From the IMG/VR virus record IMGVR_UViG_3300030117_006441, positions 1-54,287 of that record: a stretch of 54,287 bases of DNA; one strand, written 5' to 3'. Shown in pieces: positions 31,299 through 43,400 of this stretch. The stretch comes from a virus. How positions within the stretch are numbered: position 1 is the first letter of the stretch; every line of letters begins with the position of its first letter. Made by a program: the position numbers and the translations under genes. Under the pieces are notes generated by a model. It worked only from the letters and a program-made list of their open reading frames with translations. It had not been told where the DNA came from and did no database searches.

Positions 31299-31474
31299 CT
31301 GGAATAGTTTTTCATTGAATCTACTAACGATTGTTTAAAATCTGATAATATTTTTTGTAAACTATCAATTAATTTAATGTTTTGTATAATATACTCAGGA
31401 TTATCTTCTTGACGTTCTTCCATTTTGTGTACTATTTTTTGTATTACTTTTGCAGCATCTATTGATTTTTGCAT
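31295..31474 (-). CDS. small helical protein, end of early operon (59 aa)
   Basis: A 59-aa helical protein (SIDAAKVIQKIVHKMEERQ) with GGAGA upstream of its ATG. Its TAA stop shares bases with the stop of the rightward 918-aa gene, so the two programmes meet with no spacer. The start lies inside the end of the nuclease gene. Function not recognised. Confidence 0.6.
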   Translation of the reverse strand: MQKSIDAAKVIQKIVHKMEERQEDNPEYIIQNIKLIDSLQKILSDFKQSLVDSMKNYSS

Positions 31475-31833
31475 TTCTTATCTCCTATTATATTTAAAAA
31501 TTCATCAAATTCTAAAACAGCATAAACTTTAGACCTATTTCTTTTAATAACCAAAATAGGCACTCTATCTTCAGAATTATCTTCTGCTTGTTCTAATGAC
31601 TTCCAAAGATTTAGTCTTTCTGTATTTTTGCATTCAAAGCTGTAAGGAATAAGCTTTTTTGCTATTGGAGATAGTACAATATCTTCGCCTCCCATTCCCA
31701 TAGTCTGTGACTTAATATCATCATACTCGAGCCGTGGCATCTTAGTCCACAGATCAACGAAGATAGATCTAAGCTTATCCCTTACTAAATTTTGTAGATT
31801 CCGTCCCTTTGCTTTCGCACTCTTTACTTTCAT
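31459..31833 (-). CDS. PD-(D/E)XK nuclease, Holliday-resolvase-like (124 aa)
   Basis: A basic N-terminus (KSAKAKGRNLQNLVRDKL) is followed by MGMGGEDIVLSP and YSFECKNTERLNLW, the E...GED...ECK pattern of a PD-(D/E)XK active site. Size and layout match small phage resolvase-like nucleases. It would cut branched DNA arising from ERF-mediated recombination and replication before packaging. A GGGGG-containing RBS precedes the ATG. Specificity cannot be read from sequence. Confidence 0.75.
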   Translation of the reverse strand: MKVKSAKAKGRNLQNLVRDKLRSIFVDLWTKMPRLEYDDIKSQTMGMGGEDIVLSPIAKKLIPYSFECKNTERLNLWKSLEQAEDNSEDRVPILVIKRNRSKVYAVLEFDEFLNIIGDKKCKNQ

Positions 31834-32862: not shown

Positions 32863-33726
32863 CTAGAATATGTATCTTATTTCTTGCCATGGCAATACAA
32901 AGTTATGTAATTCTTTAAACTTTGATATACAACGCCACTTATAATTATATTTATATCTAATATTAGTATTCCCATATTGAGATACTTTAGTTTCTTGTAT
33001 GTTAGGCTTCCATAATAACTCTTCTTGTTCTATTTTATTGTTATCTAAATTATATTGATGCATTTGTTTATTATGTGTTAAAAATATTACTTCACATTTT
33101 ACTTTATCTTTAATACTGTTATCAACATACTTATCAACAGTTTCAAATAAATCTATATACATATCCCTAGAATCTTTATGCACTATAACTGGAGAATAAT
33201 TTAAATGAACATCATATCCTGCTTCATAAAAATCATTAACTGCTTTAATTCTATCAATAATTTTAGATGTACCAGGTTCTAATTTATCAGCTAACTTTTG
33301 AGGCATAATACTAAACCTAATTCGTATTTTTCTATCTGCATCATAATCTAATAAATCTTTATTAACATATTTAGTAGCAGCAGTGCCCATAGCTTTTTCA
33401 TGATACTTAAAGTAATTAAATATAAGTCTCCAATCATGATACCTAGAATGTAATATAAAATCTTCATTACAACTAAAATCATAACTATAATATTCTTCAT
33501 GTGTTTGATTAGGCTTTTTAGGCCATTTAAGATCATTGCTATGGTTTTCTATAGCTATAAGTATATCTTCAGGATTTTGAGCTACTGTAAGCCCATTTGG
33601 TACATGTCTACGCATATAACAATACGCACACTTGTATAAACAACCAAAACCAAAGCTAGGAGTAATAAAATCACTACTACGTCCTGATTCTCTGATTGTC
33701 ATTGCCTTTCTATTTACATATTTCAT
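32863..33726 (-). CDS. radical SAM enzyme, SPL-like (287 aa)
   Basis: C29, C33 and C36 in CLYKCAYCYM form the C-x3-C-x2-C motif that binds the 4Fe-4S cluster of radical SAM enzymes. The surrounding TPSFGFGC...CYMRRHVPNG and a length of 287 aa resemble the spore photoproduct lyase-like branch of phage radical SAM proteins. It would generate a 5'-deoxyadenosyl radical; the substrate could be damaged or modified DNA or a tRNA/nucleotide. A GGGGA RBS precedes the start, and the structured spacer 33745-33815 lies just upstream. Confidence 0.75.
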   Translation of the reverse strand: MKYVNRKAMTIRESGRSSDFITPSFGFGCLYKCAYCYMRRHVPNGLTVAQNPEDILIAIENHSNDLKWPKKPNQTHEEYYSYDFSCNEDFILHSRYHDWRLIFNYFKYHEKAMGTAATKYVNKDLLDYDADRKIRIRFSIMPQKLADKLEPGTSKIIDRIKAVNDFYEAGYDVHLNYSPVIVHKDSRDMYIDLFETVDKYVDNSIKDKVKCEVIFLTHNKQMHQYNLDNNKIEQEELLWKPNIQETKVSQYGNTNIRYKYNYKWRCISKFKELHNFVLPWQEIRYIF

Positions 33727-34119: not shown

Positions 34120-34489
34120 TTTGTACCTCCTTGTTTTGTTTTAACATATCTTCAGCTTGTTGTTTATTTAAAGCTTCCATTTTTTCTTTAGATTCTATCA
34201 TACCCCATAGTATACATAAATATACTATAGCATCTGTTAATCTACCCTTTACATTTTCTCTTTGTGATACGTGACCTTTAATATAAGATGCAATACCATC
34301 TATATGCTTCATAAGATATATCCAAAGAACCATTTCTTGTGAATTCCCTGTTTGATTAGCTATTCTTTGAAAATTAGCAAATACATTATCTTTATTCATA
34401 GCATATTCTTTTTGACCTTCAGTATGCATAGTTTTAACTTCATTAAGTATCGAATCAATCAAAGCTATCATTTCCCTGTGTTTCATCAT
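34100..34489 (-). CDS. all-helical protein resembling MazG/DUF6378-type phage proteins (129 aa)
   Basis: A 129-aa helical protein. The pattern EYAMNKDNVFANFQRIANQ...LWIYLMKHIDGIASYIKG...GRLTDAIVYLCILWGMIE has the KhxRh...D...Yhhh layout of small phage proteins linked to nucleotide pyrophosphohydrolases. Two ATGs (34489 and 34486) are possible. It overlaps the primase-helicase stop. The enzymatic role is uncertain; the typical E-x-x-E metal motif is not clearly present. Confidence 0.5.
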   Translation of the reverse strand: MMKHREMIALIDSILNEVKTMHTEGQKEYAMNKDNVFANFQRIANQTGNSQEMVLWIYLMKHIDGIASYIKGHVSQRENVKGRLTDAIVYLCILWGMIESKEKMEALNKQQAEDMLKQNKEVQNGTSYV

Positions 34490-36234
34490 TCTATCCTCAC
34501 GTTATTTACATTTAATCTAACATTAAGAAACTCTTTCTCTCTGTTTTTATCACTTTTAACATGTATCATTTCTATAAGATTTGTTTCTTTATTTCTATAT
34601 GGTGTTAATGATAATAGTTTATTAGCATTATATGCCACACGGAATGAACCTCTAGAAGATGATATATCCATGCCTTCTTTAAAAGCAGATTTACTAATTT
34701 CACTAACAGCAAACACAACTACGTTGTATTTAACTGCAAGTTCCATAAGAGCTTGAGAGGCTTCTTCCACTTTCATATTATTGTCTTGACGTTTACTCTT
34801 AAATAGACCCATATGATCAACAACTACAAGCTCTGGTTTATTTTCCATCATAGCTATTTTATTTTCTATATCACTAGGATATGGAGAAGAATAATCTACA
34901 GTAAGATACTCAAATTTATCTTCTTGACCATTTTGTAATTGACTATAATGAGCTTCTAACTCTTCATGTGTCCATTTATTTTCTATCATTACAAATCTAG
35001 ACCATATTTGTCTTGGAGACATTTCCATCTCAATAAAATATGTTGGTTTCTTTAATGCAACTATCCAATTTTGTAATAACATTGTTTTCATACTAGCAGG
35101 TGGAGCTTGTATAATAACTACTTCACCTGGATAAATAGGAAAATCTTGACCATACAACTCACCTATATTTATAGGGTTATGGTCTTTAGAATAAAACTCT
35201 ATTAATTCTTTTTCCATAGCAGATGCATTCATTACACTTTCAGTTCTTACACTTCTTTTACCTCTATGCAATTTACATGTACTATCACAATAGAATTTAA
35301 TTATAGGGTCATCCCATCCATAAGTATAGCCTTCACCTCCGTGTCCTTTATAACAACCAGTAATAATGTTATCCATTTCTGCTTGTTTAAATTCATGTTG
35401 AATACTTACTCGTTGTCTCCAATTTTCCATAATCATTCGTACTATATTCTCTGGAAAACGCCATCTAAGATATGCAGCAAGTCTTAATGCAACCATATGC
35501 CTTTTACCTTTAGGTGCACCTTCCATCATTTTTTGAATACATGTATGATGTTTTGTCTCTAATGACTGTGTTTGTATTTGTTGTTGTTTCGGTTCTTCTT
35601 TAATTAACACATTAAATACAGGTTTATCTACAGGATCTACAGGCTCAGATTCTTTTTGTTCTGAAGCATAATGTTTAATAACGCTTTCTAAGTCTTCTTT
35701 ATTGCAATTCATAACATTATTTACATAATCTTCATGTATTTGCACTTTAAATAGACCAGATTTACTATTTTTAGTATTATTTATTCTAATAATTCTAGTT
35801 TTATCTGTTACTGAAGGGTCAGCTATATTGAATATACCTTTATCTGTTAATTCTTTCTTTACAGCTATGTGTAAATCTTTATGAGCTTCCCATTCAAATG
35901 CACTTCGATGTATACCTACATGAAATCCAGTACCACTAAAATAAACTTTACTGGGAACATCTAGCTGTTTTAAGAGTTTAAGTAAATCAATTAATTTATC
36001 TCTTGCATCTAATACATTACTACCATCTACATCTAACAAAAATTCTTCTGGCATATATATTTTACCATCAAATCCTGATAAAGATTTATTATCACTATAA
36101 TAGTTCTTTACATCTTCATCATAATCATATAAAGAACAAAATGTATCGTTCTCTATTCCTTCCCATTGTTCAATACTATCAGCATCATGAAAATGATGTC
36201 TATTAGATAATCCGAACGCAATTTCTTTAATCAT
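34486..36234 (-). CDS. AEP primase-DnaB-type helicase fusion (582 aa)
   Basis: The N-terminal half has the archaeo-eukaryotic primase signature: D68-x-D70 (LLDVDGS), SGTGFH (100-105) and ADPSVTDKTRIIR (about 138-150). A middle part with C294, C316, C320 and H323 may be a linker zinc element. The C-terminal RecA-like domain has a Walker A variant APPASMKT (K383, T384), a Walker B VVVDH (D473) and a DnaB-like tail. It would prime and unwind DNA at the fork. With no DNA polymerase in the window, host polymerase is probably recruited. The Walker A glycines are replaced (PASMKT), which is notable. Confidence 0.85.
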   Translation of the reverse strand: MIKEIAFGLSNRHHFHDADSIEQWEGIENDTFCSLYDYDEDVKNYYSDNKSLSGFDGKIYMPEEFLLDVDGSNVLDARDKLIDLLKLLKQLDVPSKVYFSGTGFHVGIHRSAFEWEAHKDLHIAVKKELTDKGIFNIADPSVTDKTRIIRINNTKNSKSGLFKVQIHEDYVNNVMNCNKEDLESVIKHYASEQKESEPVDPVDKPVFNVLIKEEPKQQQIQTQSLETKHHTCIQKMMEGAPKGKRHMVALRLAAYLRWRFPENIVRMIMENWRQRVSIQHEFKQAEMDNIITGCYKGHGGEGYTYGWDDPIIKFYCDSTCKLHRGKRSVRTESVMNASAMEKELIEFYSKDHNPINIGELYGQDFPIYPGEVVIIQAPPASMKTMLLQNWIVALKKPTYFIEMEMSPRQIWSRFVMIENKWTHEELEAHYSQLQNGQEDKFEYLTVDYSSPYPSDIENKIAMMENKPELVVVDHMGLFKSKRQDNNMKVEEASQALMELAVKYNVVVFAVSEISKSAFKEGMDISSSRGSFRVAYNANKLLSLTPYRNKETNLIEMIHVKSDKNREKEFLNVRLNVNNVRIE

Positions 36235-36329: not shown

Positions 36330-36890
36330 TTAAAACGGTATTTCATCACTTGATGTTGTACTTGTCTCATTAGTCGTAGTGGAGGATACAAAAGTATCTG
36401 TCTCTACTTCGCCACTTGTTAGTTTTGGTTTAACGAACTTAATAAAGTAGTTATTAGCTTTATTCTTCCAATATTGTACATCATCTGCTGTAAATTCTTC
36501 AGCAGCATTTTTAAATACTGTTGGAACAAATTGTTTTAATATTCTACTATATTTACCATCTTTATAAAGATAGATATTAACTGTTTTACCAGCAAGGTGC
36601 TTAGGATCATCATCCATTTTAATTACAACTTTACCGTCATCACTTTCTAAACCTCCTGTGATACCAGCATTAGCAAATCTAAAGACTTGGCCTATAGCCC
36701 ATTCTTCTCCATTGCTAACATTAGCGTAAATTCTAGCATTAAAGTTTTCAGGATAACCTTCAAACCATACATCTAGATATTTAGCATCGTTATAAACACC
36801 ATAAGCAGCTCTAGCAATAGTTGCTTCTTTCCAACCTTCAGCATAACTATTACCACCACCACCTTTATTAACTGTCATTGTTCTAGCCAT
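36330..36890 (-). CDS. single-stranded DNA-binding protein (186 aa)
   Basis: The start is taken at the ATG at 36890 (MARTMTVNKGGGG), which follows AAGGAGG; an upstream extension is unlikely. The C-terminus is Thr/Ser/acidic and ends SSDEIPF, the acidic DxIPF tail by which SSBs recruit partner proteins. The central beta-rich part (WAIGQVFRFANAG, KTVNIYLYKDGKYSRIL) fits an OB fold. It lies between the annealing protein and the primase-helicase, as expected. The start overlaps the ERF stop. Confidence 0.75.
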   Translation of the reverse strand: MARTMTVNKGGGGNSYAEGWKEATIARAAYGVYNDAKYLDVWFEGYPENFNARIYANVSNGEEWAIGQVFRFANAGITGGLESDDGKVVIKMDDDPKHLAGKTVNIYLYKDGKYSRILKQFVPTVFKNAAEEFTADDVQYWKNKANNYFIKFVKPKLTSGEVETDTFVSSTTTNETSTTSSDEIPF

Positions 36891-37353
36891 TAGTACCTCC
36901 TTGTATTTGAATTGAATTACCATCATCATCTGTTTGTGCTATACCTACCATAGCCGATAGTGAAAATCTTCTTGCATAAGTAATAGTAGCTCCTACTGCT
37001 TGTGCATCTTGTTTACCACCAATAGGCATTTTTAACTTTGATTTAACCCATTGTCCTGATTCATGTAATAACATAGTAGTTACATAAAAGCTACCTTTAT
37101 CACACGTATCATTTCCTTGTATTACGGATAAACCATTTTTAGTTAATTGTGGAAAGCATGATTTAATTACAGTATCTAAATCAGCATAATCAGACTTGAA
37201 GAATGGATTAGTACTACTTTTCTTAGCACCTCTAATTTCAGATTGAGCTTTAGCTAACGCTGCAGCCAATTTGTCAATTTCAGGTGACATCCATTCGTTT
37301 TTTCTTCTATTTATAGGGTCAGAAGTCCCTTTGGGTTCTTGAATTGCTTCCAT
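36883..37353 (-). CDS. erf: ERF-family ssDNA-annealing recombinase (156 aa)
   Basis: LAAALAKAQSEIRGAKKSS then NPFFKSDYADLDTV, GLSVIQ, LHESGQWVKSKLKMP and QAVGATITYARRFSLSAMVGI...TDDDGNS match the ERF superfamily (P22 Erf core) in order. It anneals complementary single strands in recombination-dependent replication and pairs with the SSB encoded immediately downstream. At 156 aa it is essentially the core domain without the C-terminal region of P22 Erf. Confidence 0.9.
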   Translation of the reverse strand: MEAIQEPKGTSDPINRRKNEWMSPEIDKLAAALAKAQSEIRGAKKSSTNPFFKSDYADLDTVIKSCFPQLTKNGLSVIQGNDTCDKGSFYVTTMLLHESGQWVKSKLKMPIGGKQDAQAVGATITYARRFSLSAMVGIAQTDDDGNSIQIQGGTNG

Positions 37354-37419: not shown

Positions 37420-38082
37420 CTATTTTCCAAGTATCATTGTAGGAAAGTTAAATGAGAATTTTTTATCATAAGGCTGGTTAGTTATTAACTTCCTAACAGC
37501 ATTACAAATAAAACTTCCACTCATATTACTACAATAACTTGTTGCCTTCATTGTACATGGTTCAGGATCAGAATCACCATCAGGATACCATGTTTTAAGG
37601 TAATTTTTTAATGTTGGCTTTGGTAAGACATATTGTTGGTAATGTTCAGCTCCCATACGACCATCAATAATTGCAAAAGGTTTAATTCTGCTTTTAGATA
37701 TATGAGTTACTGCATCTAATCTAGATTTCATACTATCAAAACCTAGTATAATTATATCATTATGCTGACTCATAGGTATATATTCATTGTCTTCTGGGAA
37801 TTTACCAAAATATTTATCGACTGTTTTCTTGTTTCCAGTGATATTTATTATATGATGATAGAGACAATCAACCTTATTTTTACCGACATCTTTTATGTTA
37901 TATTGACTTACACCTATATTTGGTTGCTCAACAACATCTCCATCGTATAAAGCAAAGTTTTCTGCTCCCATTCTTGCCAACTGCATGGCTGCAGAGCTAC
38001 CAATAGCCCCGCAACCAAGTATATGGTAAGAATAGTCATTCATATTACTAACAATATCACTGAATCTACTATTTTTGTCCAT
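37420..38082 (-). CDS. E1/ThiF-type ubiquitin-like activating enzyme (220 aa)
   Basis: A Rossmann nucleotide-binding loop GCGAIG (23-28) is followed by LYDGDVVEQPNIGVSQYN...GKNKVD (45-72), the D...N...Q...K pattern by which E1/ThiF/MoeB enzymes bind ATP and the Ubl tail, and by GFDSMKSR (D116). C176 and C184 are candidate thioester or zinc residues. It would adenylate the C-terminal Gly of the Ubl encoded at 40417. At 220 aa it is a minimal E1 without extra domains. The start overlaps the JAMM gene end by 14 bases. Confidence 0.85.
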   Translation of the reverse strand: MDKNSRFSDIVSNMNDYSYHILGCGAIGSSAAMQLARMGAENFALYDGDVVEQPNIGVSQYNIKDVGKNKVDCLYHHIINITGNKKTVDKYFGKFPEDNEYIPMSQHNDIIILGFDSMKSRLDAVTHISKSRIKPFAIIDGRMGAEHYQQYVLPKPTLKNYLKTWYPDGDSDPEPCTMKATSYCSNMSGSFICNAVRKLITNQPYDKKFSFNFPTMILGK

Positions 38083-39025
38083 GTATCCCTCCTGTTAAAT
38101 AACTTTCATTCCAGCTTTGTTCATCAGCATAATCCATATAAGGATCTAACTCTTCATAACCAGGATCACAAATGATTAAATCCCATGCATGTATTTCTAA
38201 TAAGCTATCAAAATCACATTTTTCTATTAGTTCTACAGACAATGGCATTTTAGCATTTTCTAATCTTCTGTTTACATCCTTTATTTTATTAGCATATTTT
38301 TCATAGTTAAATTCACCAGCTATAAATGAAGAATTTATACTATCTACTTTTTCTAATAATTGAATCCATGCTGTTCTTATTATATTTCTTTCACTATGCT
38401 CATTAAGATTTGCATTGAATAAAGTAGTTTGATCTGTTCCAGGAATAACAGTTCCACTTGTTACTCCCTTATTAGTCCATTTACTCCAACTACTACCAGA
38501 ATTATACCAATTAGTAGCTGGTTTAGTACAGAATTTTTCTACTTCATCATTAATTTTCTTAGGTATCTTAAATTCTTTATTATCATTTAAGATATTAAGT
38601 TCAACATCTTTATGCATTACAAAAGGTTTCCATACTGATACTCTACATTTATATTCTTCTTTTACATTAACTACTAAAGCAAAACTTAAGTCGCCATCTT
38701 CATATTCATCTATAGTATTTGTATCAGTACCACTCCAGAAAGCATCCATTTTAGCATGAGAATGCCACCAACAAAAGCGAATGTTCTTTTTCTTATACTT
38801 CATAGCCATTTTACTGTAATATGCTGCTAATTCAGTTTTATCTAATTCGCATAATGCTGGAGATACTTCTTGTTTCATTATTACTGGATCTGTAATTTGC
38901 CAGTCACCATCCTCATCTTGAATAGTTACTGCCATACCACCTATTTCTGTGCTCCATTTATTTGAAGCACATCTGGCATAATTAATTATCTTATCCCAAT
39001 CCTTCTTTTCTATAAATACTTCCAT
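38069..39025 (-). CDS. JAB/JAMM metalloprotease (318 aa)
   Basis: The complete JAMM zinc motif is present: E27 (TEIGGM) and H88-S-H90-x7-S98-x2-D101 (WWHSHAKMDAFWSGTD). The JAB domain occupies about residues 1-150. The C-terminal about 170 residues are unassigned and include Trp/Gly-rich NWYNSGSSWSKWTNKG. JAMM enzymes remove Ubls from targets or trim their C-termini. Here the likely substrate is the GGC-ended Ubl of the same operon, which needs loss of the final Cys to expose GG. Confidence 0.9.
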   Translation of the reverse strand: MEVFIEKKDWDKIINYARCASNKWSTEIGGMAVTIQDEDGDWQITDPVIMKQEVSPALCELDKTELAAYYSKMAMKYKKKNIRFCWWHSHAKMDAFWSGTDTNTIDEYEDGDLSFALVVNVKEEYKCRVSVWKPFVMHKDVELNILNDNKEFKIPKKINDEVEKFCTKPATNWYNSGSSWSKWTNKGVTSGTVIPGTDQTTLFNANLNEHSERNIIRTAWIQLLEKVDSINSSFIAGEFNYEKYANKIKDVNRRLENAKMPLSVELIEKCDFDSLLEIHAWDLIICDPGYEELDPYMDYADEQSWNESYLTGGIHGQK

Positions 39026-40329
39026 TATTGATTCCTCCTATTATTTACTAGATTTAATGTTAATGCTTCCAGAGCTTCTCTTTCAGCGTTTGTTGTTGTA
39101 GGTGAAACTTCTACAGGTTCATCTTTATATATCACTACAGCAGCTTTATACGATGGACATTCATCTTTTACAGTACAATATGCAGAACAATAAGATTCTT
39201 CTGTAACATTTATCCCATCTTCAGCCTGATCTTGAACAATATGACCATATCCACAATTAGAAGGTGTCATTTTAGCATTTATATTGTAATATTCATCATT
39301 GCCTTCTAAGAAATTAGGCTGTCCAAAGTAAGATCTATTAATTTGATTAAGTGGGCCTGTTTGAGTGTCATAATGTGTCATCAATCTATTTATAAATACT
39401 TTTAATGATATAAAATCTAAAGCTCTTACGCAAGAATGAAATTCTTGATTCATAGCTCCTACACATACATATCTAAAAGCATCGTTAAATATATTATTAT
39501 AATTATATGAATATCCATTACCACTTATAAATGGATGTTGCAATCCTTGATAACTACCATACCATCTGCCACCTATAGCATAAAACCAGTTTTTAGTACT
39601 GTTACCATTGGCTACTCTAATACTATTTGGTATTCTATTTACATCAAGTTTTGCAGATATTAGACAATTAATTATTTTTACTAATGATATTCTTATAACT
39701 ATGTAGCCTTCTCCAGGTAAATTAATTTCTGCTATATTATCTGGATTTTCGTAATGCCTATAGTTAATTTTTACATCATTATAATTATATATTATATCTA
39801 ATAAATAATTAGTAACAACTCCTTCAGTTTCTATTGGACTTATTCTTAAACCAAAAGCACCGTCAGACATTTCATATTGCCTATACAAATGAGCTTTTAT
39901 TACTTCCCATGACTCAATTACATCATCAGTATTATCTTGCATTATGAGCCCTTGTTGCCTAAAGCTACTTAATATGTCTTCAATATTTGCTAATTCAGTC
40001 GACATATTTCTTAATCTCCAATTAGCATTATCTTTAACTCTTTGTACAACTTTTCCTAATGAATTTGCTTTCTTATGCATTTCACCTTGATGCCATAATA
40101 TATCTTTTATAGTATCATAAGCTCCTGGTTTCCAATAAAACTTTTTAGTAATACCAAGAGGTTTAGTAGGTGCATGTAAATTGTAAGACCTTACTACATG
40201 ATTTTCACCTTGTACGTATCTAGTATTAAATTCATCAATTAATTCTAATACTTCAGCTTGAGGTCCTAATTGAATATTTTCTATTAAGCTTGTCAAGTCT
40301 GGATTTAATTCAAATAAGTTTGTTTGCAT
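39025..40329 (-). CDS. possible E2-like protein with C-terminal Cys cluster (434 aa)
   Basis: Lies between Ubl and JAMM genes; its stop overlaps the JAMM start. Residues 250-320 contain GGRWYGSYQGLQHPFISGNG (H265-P266), then C289 in YVCVG, and helices to NRLMTHYD. This resembles the HP(H/N)...C-x-G layout of prokaryotic E2/UBC-like proteins from Ubl operons. The C-terminus has C359, C381, C385 and C391 (CSAYC...C), a probable metal or Fe-S site. The N-terminal 250 residues are unassigned. The E2 reading is inference; it could be an E3-like, adaptor or unrelated metal protein. Confidence 0.45.
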   Translation of the reverse strand: MQTNLFELNPDLTSLIENIQLGPQAEVLELIDEFNTRYVQGENHVVRSYNLHAPTKPLGITKKFYWKPGAYDTIKDILWHQGEMHKKANSLGKVVQRVKDNANWRLRNMSTELANIEDILSSFRQQGLIMQDNTDDVIESWEVIKAHLYRQYEMSDGAFGLRISPIETEGVVTNYLLDIIYNYNDVKINYRHYENPDNIAEINLPGEGYIVIRISLVKIINCLISAKLDVNRIPNSIRVANGNSTKNWFYAIGGRWYGSYQGLQHPFISGNGYSYNYNNIFNDAFRYVCVGAMNQEFHSCVRALDFISLKVFINRLMTHYDTQTGPLNQINRSYFGQPNFLEGNDEYYNINAKMTPSNCGYGHIVQDQAEDGINVTEESYCSAYCTVKDECPSYKAAVVIYKDEPVEVSPTTTNAEREALEALTLNLVNNRRNQ

Positions 40330-40354
40330 TGTATCTCTCCTATATTGTAAGAAA

Positions 40355-40395
40355 GGGGACAGTAAGTGGATTGTAAGTGTGAGTAGACTATCCCC
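40355..40395 (-). promoter_or_regulatory. hairpin upstream of the E2-like gene
   Basis: GGGGA-c-AGT (40355-40363) pairs with ACT-a-TCCCC (40387-40395), a 9-bp stem with one mismatch closing a 23-base loop. It lies in the gap between the Ubl stop and the next ATG. It may be an attenuator that lowers expression of downstream genes relative to the Ubl, or a processing site. Confidence 0.45.
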
Positions 40396-40416
40396 CTCCT
40401 CTGTGTTTACACTAAA

Positions 40417-40629
40417 CTAGCAACCGCCAGATTTATTATTCTGAACAGCTGCCACTACGGAACCATCTGTAAGTTCATGAGTATCCGCCACATTAGTACC
40501 ATTTACTGCAATATCAGCACCAGGGCTAATATCTAATTCAGCTCTCAATTGAGCTACAGTTAATGAAGTGACTTCTTTATCTACAAATCCACCACCCGCT
40601 AACCATCTTATCGTTCTAGTTGTTGCCAT
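40417..40629 (-). CDS. ubiquitin-like modifier ending in GGC (70 aa)
   Basis: A 70-aa protein with a beta-grasp pattern: an N-terminal hairpin (TIRWLAGGGFVDKEV), a helix (LTVAQLRAELDI) and ADIAVNGTNVADTHELTDGSVVAAV, which reads like ThiS/MoaD ('VNG...L.DGD.V'). It ends KSGGC, so removal of one residue would expose the Gly-Gly used for adenylation. Strong RBS (AAGGAGG). It is the first gene of the cassette in the direction of transcription, followed by E2-like, JAMM and E1 genes. It may be a protein tag or a sulphur carrier. Confidence 0.8.
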   Translation of the reverse strand: MATTRTIRWLAGGGFVDKEVTSLTVAQLRAELDISPGADIAVNGTNVADTHELTDGSVVAAVQNNKSGGC

Positions 40630-43320: not shown

Positions 43321-43327
43321 AATGTTG

Positions 43328-43400
43328 TAGCGGAGGTTGGAATCGAACCAACAAACTTGTGGTTATGAGCCACACTAGGCTACCAAGCCTGCTCTCCGCA
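43328..43400 (-). tRNA. tRNA with CAU anticodon (Met or Ile-CAU type)
   Basis: On the minus strand: acceptor TGCGGAG / CTCCGCT (first pair T-T mismatched), D-arm AGGC-TTGGTA-GCCT, anticodon arm TGTGG-CTCATAA-CCACA, and T-arm GTTGG-TTCGATT-CCAAC. The unpaired 1-72 position resembles initiator tRNA, but the anticodon stem lacks the three G-C pairs of initiators, so elongator Met or a lysidine-modified Ile tRNA are the alternatives. CCA is not encoded (ACA follows). An 8-10 AGC start of the D arm is unusual. Confidence 0.9.

Follow-up and report, generated by a model that had tools for sequence, protein, structure and literature searches.

Can a bacterial virus run a ubiquitin-like (Ubl) tagging pathway of its own? 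Ubl tagging in bacteria is so far known mainly as an anti-phage weapon or as sulphur chemistry, and the question is raised by four consecutive leftward genes in the 54.3-kb virus record IMGVR_UViG_3300030117_006441 (hereafter the window, meaning the whole stretch of 54,287 nucleotides that was analysed; four relatives measure 55.6-57.3 kb). A sequence-only reading of the window had proposed that these genes form a complete Ubl conjugation cassette. We found all four exactly where it had placed them, on the - strand, and gene identity, catalytic residues, precursor-like tails and gene order all uphold the proposal. The cassette genes and their key residues are as follows:

40417-40629, - strand: Ubl of 70 aa, beta-grasp, ending NNKSGGC
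40423-40428, - strand: GG of the Ubl (codons 68-69), the predicted mature end
40420-40422, - strand: Cys70 of the Ubl, a one-residue tail after GG
39025-40329, - strand: E2-like protein of 434 aa, with ...QHPFIS...YVCVGA...
39463-39465, - strand: Cys289 of the E2-like protein, catalytic candidate
38069-39025, - strand: JAMM/MPN+ metallopeptidase of 318 aa, with TEIGG...HSHAKMDAFWSGTD, that is HxHx7SxxD with Glu upstream
38945-38947, - strand: E27 of the JAMM, the upstream Glu
38723-38764, - strand: H88, H90, S98 and D101 of the JAMM (HxHx7SxxD)
37420-38082, - strand: minimal E1 of 220 aa, a ThiF-type adenylation domain, with GCGAIGSS...DGD...GFDSM...PEPCTMK
37555-37557, - strand: Cys176 of the E1, predicted catalytic, in PEPC[TN]xKATSYC

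The genes are tightly packed, with overlaps of 1 base between E2 and JAMM and 14 bases between JAMM and E1, and a gap of 87 bases between the Ubl and E2 genes. We consider it likely, with a probability of roughly 0.7, that they specify a complete virus-specific pathway of Ubl conjugation and deconjugation, encoded together with replication and recombination genes. Gene content, gene order, catalytic residues, the precursor signature and the UBC-like topology of a structural model are established directly, and from them we infer every chemical step.

The window E1 matches Pfam ThiF at 63.6 bits, well above the cut-off, and residues G23/G25/G28, D47, D49, K70, D116, R121 and the predicted catalytic C176 are kept in 96/96 sequences, in agreement with its earlier identification as a minimal E1. 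The best PDB relatives of the E1 profile include UBA5, UBA6 and MccB. The window Ubl matches Pfam ThiS with an E-value of 2.4e-4 (22.0 bits, just below the 22.5 cut-off), a family also matched by 22 of the 41 Ubls of relatives. An alignment of 41 diverse Ubls is invariant at K66, G68 and G69 only, and [ND]K-x-GG occurs in 67/67 Ubls, followed by a tail of 0-60 residues (absent in 21, one to three residues in 35, and 7-60 in the remainder). Such a variable tail past an invariant GG is, as judged from these alignments, the signature of a ubiquitin-type precursor predicted to be cut after GG, and the GG-then-tail pattern is typical of ubiquitin and SUMO precursors. Trimming of this kind is known for the bacterial Bil system, in which the BilA precursor is processed by its own JAMM, BilC (PMC11354881). 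The earlier description of a 70-aa beta-grasp protein ending in GGC holds, except that the Cys is only one of many variable tails after the invariant KxGG. As the residues beyond GG vary freely, we ruled out GGC as a functional thiol tail and regard the terminal Cys of the window protein as a one-residue tail with no special thiol.

The window JAMM falls under the cut-off of Pfam Prok-JAB (E 3.4e-3), a family matched by 31/31 peptidases of relatives. Its E/HxHx7SxxD motif is intact, as had been claimed, and the ligands are conserved in essentially all relatives; the C-terminal region of ~170 aa is variable, and the best solved relatives of the JAMM profile are Rpn11-like JAMM enzymes. The motif is also intact in 17 checked loci where the Ubl already ends in GG. 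Because no trimming is needed there, the enzyme would have another job, most simply deconjugation, and we believe that the JAMM probably also deconjugates.

The 434-aa protein consists of a helical N-terminal domain (GITKKFYWKPGAYDTIK), a UBC-like core with HP265-266 and a C-terminal Cys-rich motif (C359/C381/C385/C391). The HP...C-x-G region pointed out by the sequence-only reading is real: HP265-266 is present, Cys289 is kept in 69/69 E2-like proteins, and an alignment of 64 sequences contains four invariant columns only, C289 among them. An AlphaFold model from 10 sequences was unusable (predicted local distance difference test, pLDDT, 50), and a model from 64 sequences was used instead (mean pLDDT 85.2, predicted template modelling score 0.77). 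Its elements are a helix (134-155), strands forming a beta-meander (160-215), a further strand (250-258), the HP loop (HP265-266), a short strand (286-288) leading into Cys289 and a helix (306-318). As modelled, this is the UBC order of elements with a longer HP-to-Cys loop, consistent with the 434-aa protein being a probable E2. In a viral structure library the model matched proteins of crAss-like and related phages (prob 0.77-1.00).

The Pfam matches also bear on a different chemistry. ThiS and ThiF are the closest Pfam families of the Ubl and E1, and ThiS-type systems can include a JAMM (Iyer 2006, PMC1779556, Table 1 rows 4a-4e), so that one could envisage a sulphur carrier of the ThiS/MoaD type or of the kind in the PdtH siderophore cassette, in which the E1 would make a Ubl thiocarboxylate as the sulphur donor for a small molecule, a nucleobase or tRNA. 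We consider this quite improbable, and the same applies to its corollary that the 434-aa protein is an acceptor enzyme of unfamiliar type. Rhodanese, cysteine desulphurase, cysteine synthase and SirA-like genes were all missing from the neighbours that we examined, and the cassette was not assigned to the ThiS/MoaD carriers in view of this lack of a sulphur donor or rhodanese plus acceptor synthase; moreover, a protein with an invariant Cys and a UBC-like fold is always present, and many Ubl tails need trimming. Sulphur transfer is disfavoured among the roles that had been proposed, the others being the tagging of host or virion proteins and the countering of host Ubl defence.

To place the cassette among viruses, IMG/VR was scanned with JAMM, E2 and E1 queries, and close relatives keep the window gene order. 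A broader E1 alignment identified 358 IMG/VR stretches encoding an E1 relative, 80 of which were retained. The order Ubl-E2-JAMM-E1 was found in 40/40 loci that have 6 kb or more of sequence upstream of E1 (in this set, L098 and L135 come from a single contig, and a handful of sequences are almost identical), which rules out chance and answers the suggestion that related phages be searched for the same arrangement. The view that such a cassette is unusual among phages did not survive, as homologues occur in the 358 stretches and in cultured phages of the crAss-like and Flavobacterium groups. Across 84,980 genomes of bacteria and archaea the E1 query gave two weak ThiF matches only, with a pattern-based scan that would miss divergent ones.

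The helicase tree requires a single change of cassette state, with 42 positive rows versus one clade of 12 negative, and one gain or loss over this tree means that the cassette has been maintained. E1 was sought in 11 cassette-negative records and was absent from all, whereas four positive controls matched. Since terminase, portal and head genes are common to cassette-positive and cassette-negative phages, the four cassette genes are gained or lost together. The cassette is an overlooked, virus-specific, vertically inherited module. In the E1 tree, environmental and crAss E1s each form a clade; the branches are too long for the tree to show whether the two clades are sisters apart from bacterial E1s. 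The slow evolution of Ubl and E1 matches that of the helicase: ratios of nonsynonymous to synonymous change (pN/pS, simple uncorrected proportions) were 0.16 for Ubl, 0.17 for E1, 0.24 for helicase, 0.37 for JAMM and 0.58 for E2, and amino-acid sites change ~4 times faster in E2 than in Ubl (pN 0.274 vs 0.063). A slow tag and activator with a fast conjugating part fits target recognition by the E2. Two cassette-negative relatives have a conserved gene pair upstream of the annealing gene, approximately where the cassette would sit, with products of ~140-168 aa and 339-374 aa (locus:positions L101:5548-7165 and L109:6045-7473).

Using tblastn, the E1 matched Bacteroides crAss-like phages and Flavobacterium phages. 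In ΦcrAss001, gp79-gp78-gp77-gp76 have the order of the window cassette and are annotated as hypothetical, metalloprotease and thiamine biosynthesis proteins. The N-terminus of gp79 is β-grasp-like and ends KKIKSGA before a long tail, making it a β-grasp candidate by eye and position; gp78 is an HSHV...PCTG protein, gp77 a JAMM and gp76 an E1 with ETICSYKQT. ΦcrAss001 is like the window in gene order, in a beta-grasp-like protein (with KxxSG), in its C-x-G protein, in its E1 Cys motif and in having homologous E1 and JAMM proteins (profile comparison of the window family with the crAss counterparts, E 2.7e-36 and 1.3e-10, respectively). The Ubl and E2 comparisons were not significant, although the E2 C-x-G motif is nonetheless in register. 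Crass-like cassettes differ from that of the window in Ubl tails of >100 aa following KxxSG[AT], the usual end being SGA and not SGG, and in a fifth gene, gp75, after E1. The product of this gene is ~190-270 aa in crAss-type cassettes and 362 aa in Fpv1 (L030:8705-9517 and counterparts), has no Pfam match, and is a possible substrate or E3 candidate. DAC15, cr111_1, cr128_1, cr85_1, cr126_1, "frurule", bajarodcaudo virus and Dulem virus 41 agree with ΦcrAss001. Flavobacterium phage Fpv1 has the same cassette order, and its Ubl carries KSGG, the window signature, before its tail. The Fpv1 JAMM gene is split by an insert that by eye contains an opposite-strand LAGLIDADG-like open reading frame (L033:4710-7002) and may represent an intron or intein that carries a homing endonuclease. 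Jumbo phages of Xanthomonas and Erwinia encode a 141-aa protein ending KASGG together with an E1 (L035:2817-6696, L191:4817-8696) and a Cys-rich E2-like protein of 892 aa that contains HPHM...LCLG; no JAMM was found near these loci. In three papers on crAss phages (PMC6235969, PMC10172136, PMC7886860), the terms for cassette genes that we searched do not occur in the main text.

Bacterial Ubl-E2-JAMM-E1 operons have already been described (PMC1779556; Bil in PMC11354881), and the type of system is therefore known; the window cassette belongs to none of Bil, PRTRC and CBASS. BilABCD likewise consists of a Ubl, an E2, a JAMM and an E1. However, BilA is a tandem of two Ubl domains, and in BilD an inactive and an active adenylation domain form a pseudodimer (PMC11354881), in contrast to the single-domain 70-aa Ubl and 220-aa E1 of the window (the BilD model has a length of 453), and the window cassette is phage-borne and not a host defence. 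The PADLOC models for BilA, BilB and BilC had no match in the window, and no His pattern like that of the BilB CEHH motif is conserved after C289 in the E2 alignment. Membership of Bil was rejected on the single Ubl domain, the short E1 and the missing CEHH. PRTRC operons, which we take to be those of row 6d in Table 1 of Iyer 2006, resemble the window in combining stand-alone Ubl, JAB, E1 and E2 genes. That row lists all four in one operon (PMC1779556). The window proteins score far below the NCBIfam cut-offs of this system (E1 25.5 bits versus 144.75 for PRTRC_ThiF, JAMM 11.8 versus 101.8 for PRTRC_A), which excluded it, and the fifth, alpha-helical PRTRC protein was not identified in the window cassette.

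CBASS type II (Cap2/Cap3) uses Ubl-like conjugation that a peptidase reverses (PMC11153139). Its Cap2 combines E2 and E1 in one fusion protein and is tied to a CD-NTase, whereas the window E1 and E2 genes are separate and no CD-NTase was present among the neighbours examined, and a Cap2/Cap3 assignment was dropped on these grounds. The window E1 does resemble CBASS E2-E1 proteins (PADLOC 55 bits), host Bil puts Ubl on the phage tail fibre (review PMC12948488), and a lone phage JAMM could strip host Ubl off virions; all three would suit a counter-defence decoy or antagonist, in which Ubl, E1 and E2 of the phage would block or undo the action of a host Bil, CBASS or Bub system instead of carrying out conjugation themselves. 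We nevertheless find this unlikely, as the catalytic residues of all the enzymes are strictly kept when a decoy needs none, the Ubl is among the slowest-evolving genes, unlike an arms-race component, and the cassette is always complete.

The genomic neighbourhood indicates the phase of infection in which the conjugation pathway may act. The nearby genes are:

36883-37353, - strand: Erf-type single-strand annealing protein, directly downstream of E1 (Pfam ERF, E 4e-26)
36330-36929, - strand: conserved protein in the position of a single-stranded DNA-binding protein (SSB), ending DEIPF and SSB-like from tail and position only
34486-36234, - strand: primase-helicase with a DnaB-like C-terminal domain (DnaB_C, E 1.4e-11; phrog_16345 primase)
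31459-31833, - strand: PDDEXK_15 endonuclease (PF24608, E 1.6e-8)

A Sak4-like ATPase takes the place of the Erf protein in some relatives, and the 36330-36929 protein has no Pfam match. Head genes, portal and terminase are on the + strand, and the cassette is on the opposite strand among replication genes; that of ΦcrAss001 is situated between primase and uracil-DNA glycosylase. These positions argue against a role in virion assembly like that of lambda TAPI/TAPK, with Ubl and JAMM acting in tail assembly. Ubl-JAB pairs are indeed known from the tail clusters of lambdoid and T1-like phages (PMC1779556, Table 1 row 5), so that a phage Ubl and JAB are shared with the window, but they are tail genes without E1 and E2, and we hold such a role to be very improbable. 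Instead, the annealing and replication neighbours in both phage groups suggest early expression of the conjugation pathway, with replication-fork or host targets. Promoter and terminator scans yielded no more than chance. No integrase was recognised among the window proteins examined, and a lytic life style is plausible for this phage. The PDDEXK_15 endonuclease occurs in 18/19 cassette-positive and 0/8 cassette-negative loci; a functional link to the cassette was rejected, as a single event on the tree accounts for the pattern, to which L103 is an exception. A radical-SAM gene resembling spore photoproduct lyase lies downstream of the helicase (32863-33726; PF20903, E 2.3e-22), and in several relatives such a gene lies between E2 and JAMM (L048:2708-3577, L073:5819-6688, L060:5505-6437). 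A lone tRNA-Met (CAT) gene is located upstream of the early genes (43327-43400, - strand).

Several observations weigh against a complete conjugation pathway. The 434-aa protein is the least secure member of the set. Foldseek of the E2 model versus PDB gave no significant match, the best UEV domain being at E 1.6; the model, a check that had been proposed, has a UBC-like topology (pLDDT 85) but no significant match to known E2 folds. TSG101/Vps23 UEV domains, which are E2 folds without catalytic activity, recur in the top 50 of these non-significant matches (E 1.6-6.6). The window 434-aa protein matches no Pfam family at all, and as no Pfam E2 family matches any of 64 family members, by sequence it would form a new E2-like family. 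The classical E2 His is retained in 39 of 69 proteins but replaced by F in 23 and by Y in 7, and relaxed constraint in the non-catalytic regions of the E2 could look similar to target recognition. The E1 has NIGVSQY instead of the usual NxxRQ arginine and falls far short of E1s such as BilD in size. The cassette is dispensable in one phage lineage, which lacks it; no substrate is visible in the sequence; and the case as a whole is drawn from sequence and a model.

If the pathway operates as we envisage, the JAMM would trim the short Ubl tail to expose ...NNKSGG, and the 220-aa E1 would adenylate the terminal glycine and then form a thioester on Cys176. The E2-like protein would take the Ubl on Cys289 and hand it over to target lysines, its fast-evolving regions and Cys-rich tail picking the targets with no separate E3, and the JAMM would take the Ubl off again. 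Our best guess is that the targets belong to the host or to the replication fork of the phage.

What seems to be new is that phages of several groups encode and conserve a complete version: beyond TAPI/TAPK we found no phage Ubl cassette in the literature searched, which left aside preprints and most subscription journals. We see an even chance that tailed phages, including the abundant crAss-like phages of the gut and a large environmental lineage, carry dedicated Ubl signalling as a core replication-phase module. This module would modify host or phage proteins in the course of infection, differ from every Ubl system of bacterial defence and rely on an E2 that is a single protein with built-in target recognition. 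The homologues in cultured ΦcrAss001, DAC15 and Fpv1 make the question directly testable and offer a specific hypothesis on what four genes of a well-studied gut phage, now mis-annotated or unannotated, may do. If true, this would be the mirror image of bacterial Ubl defence, with bacterial viruses running their own post-translational tagging, as some eukaryotic viruses exploit ubiquitin.

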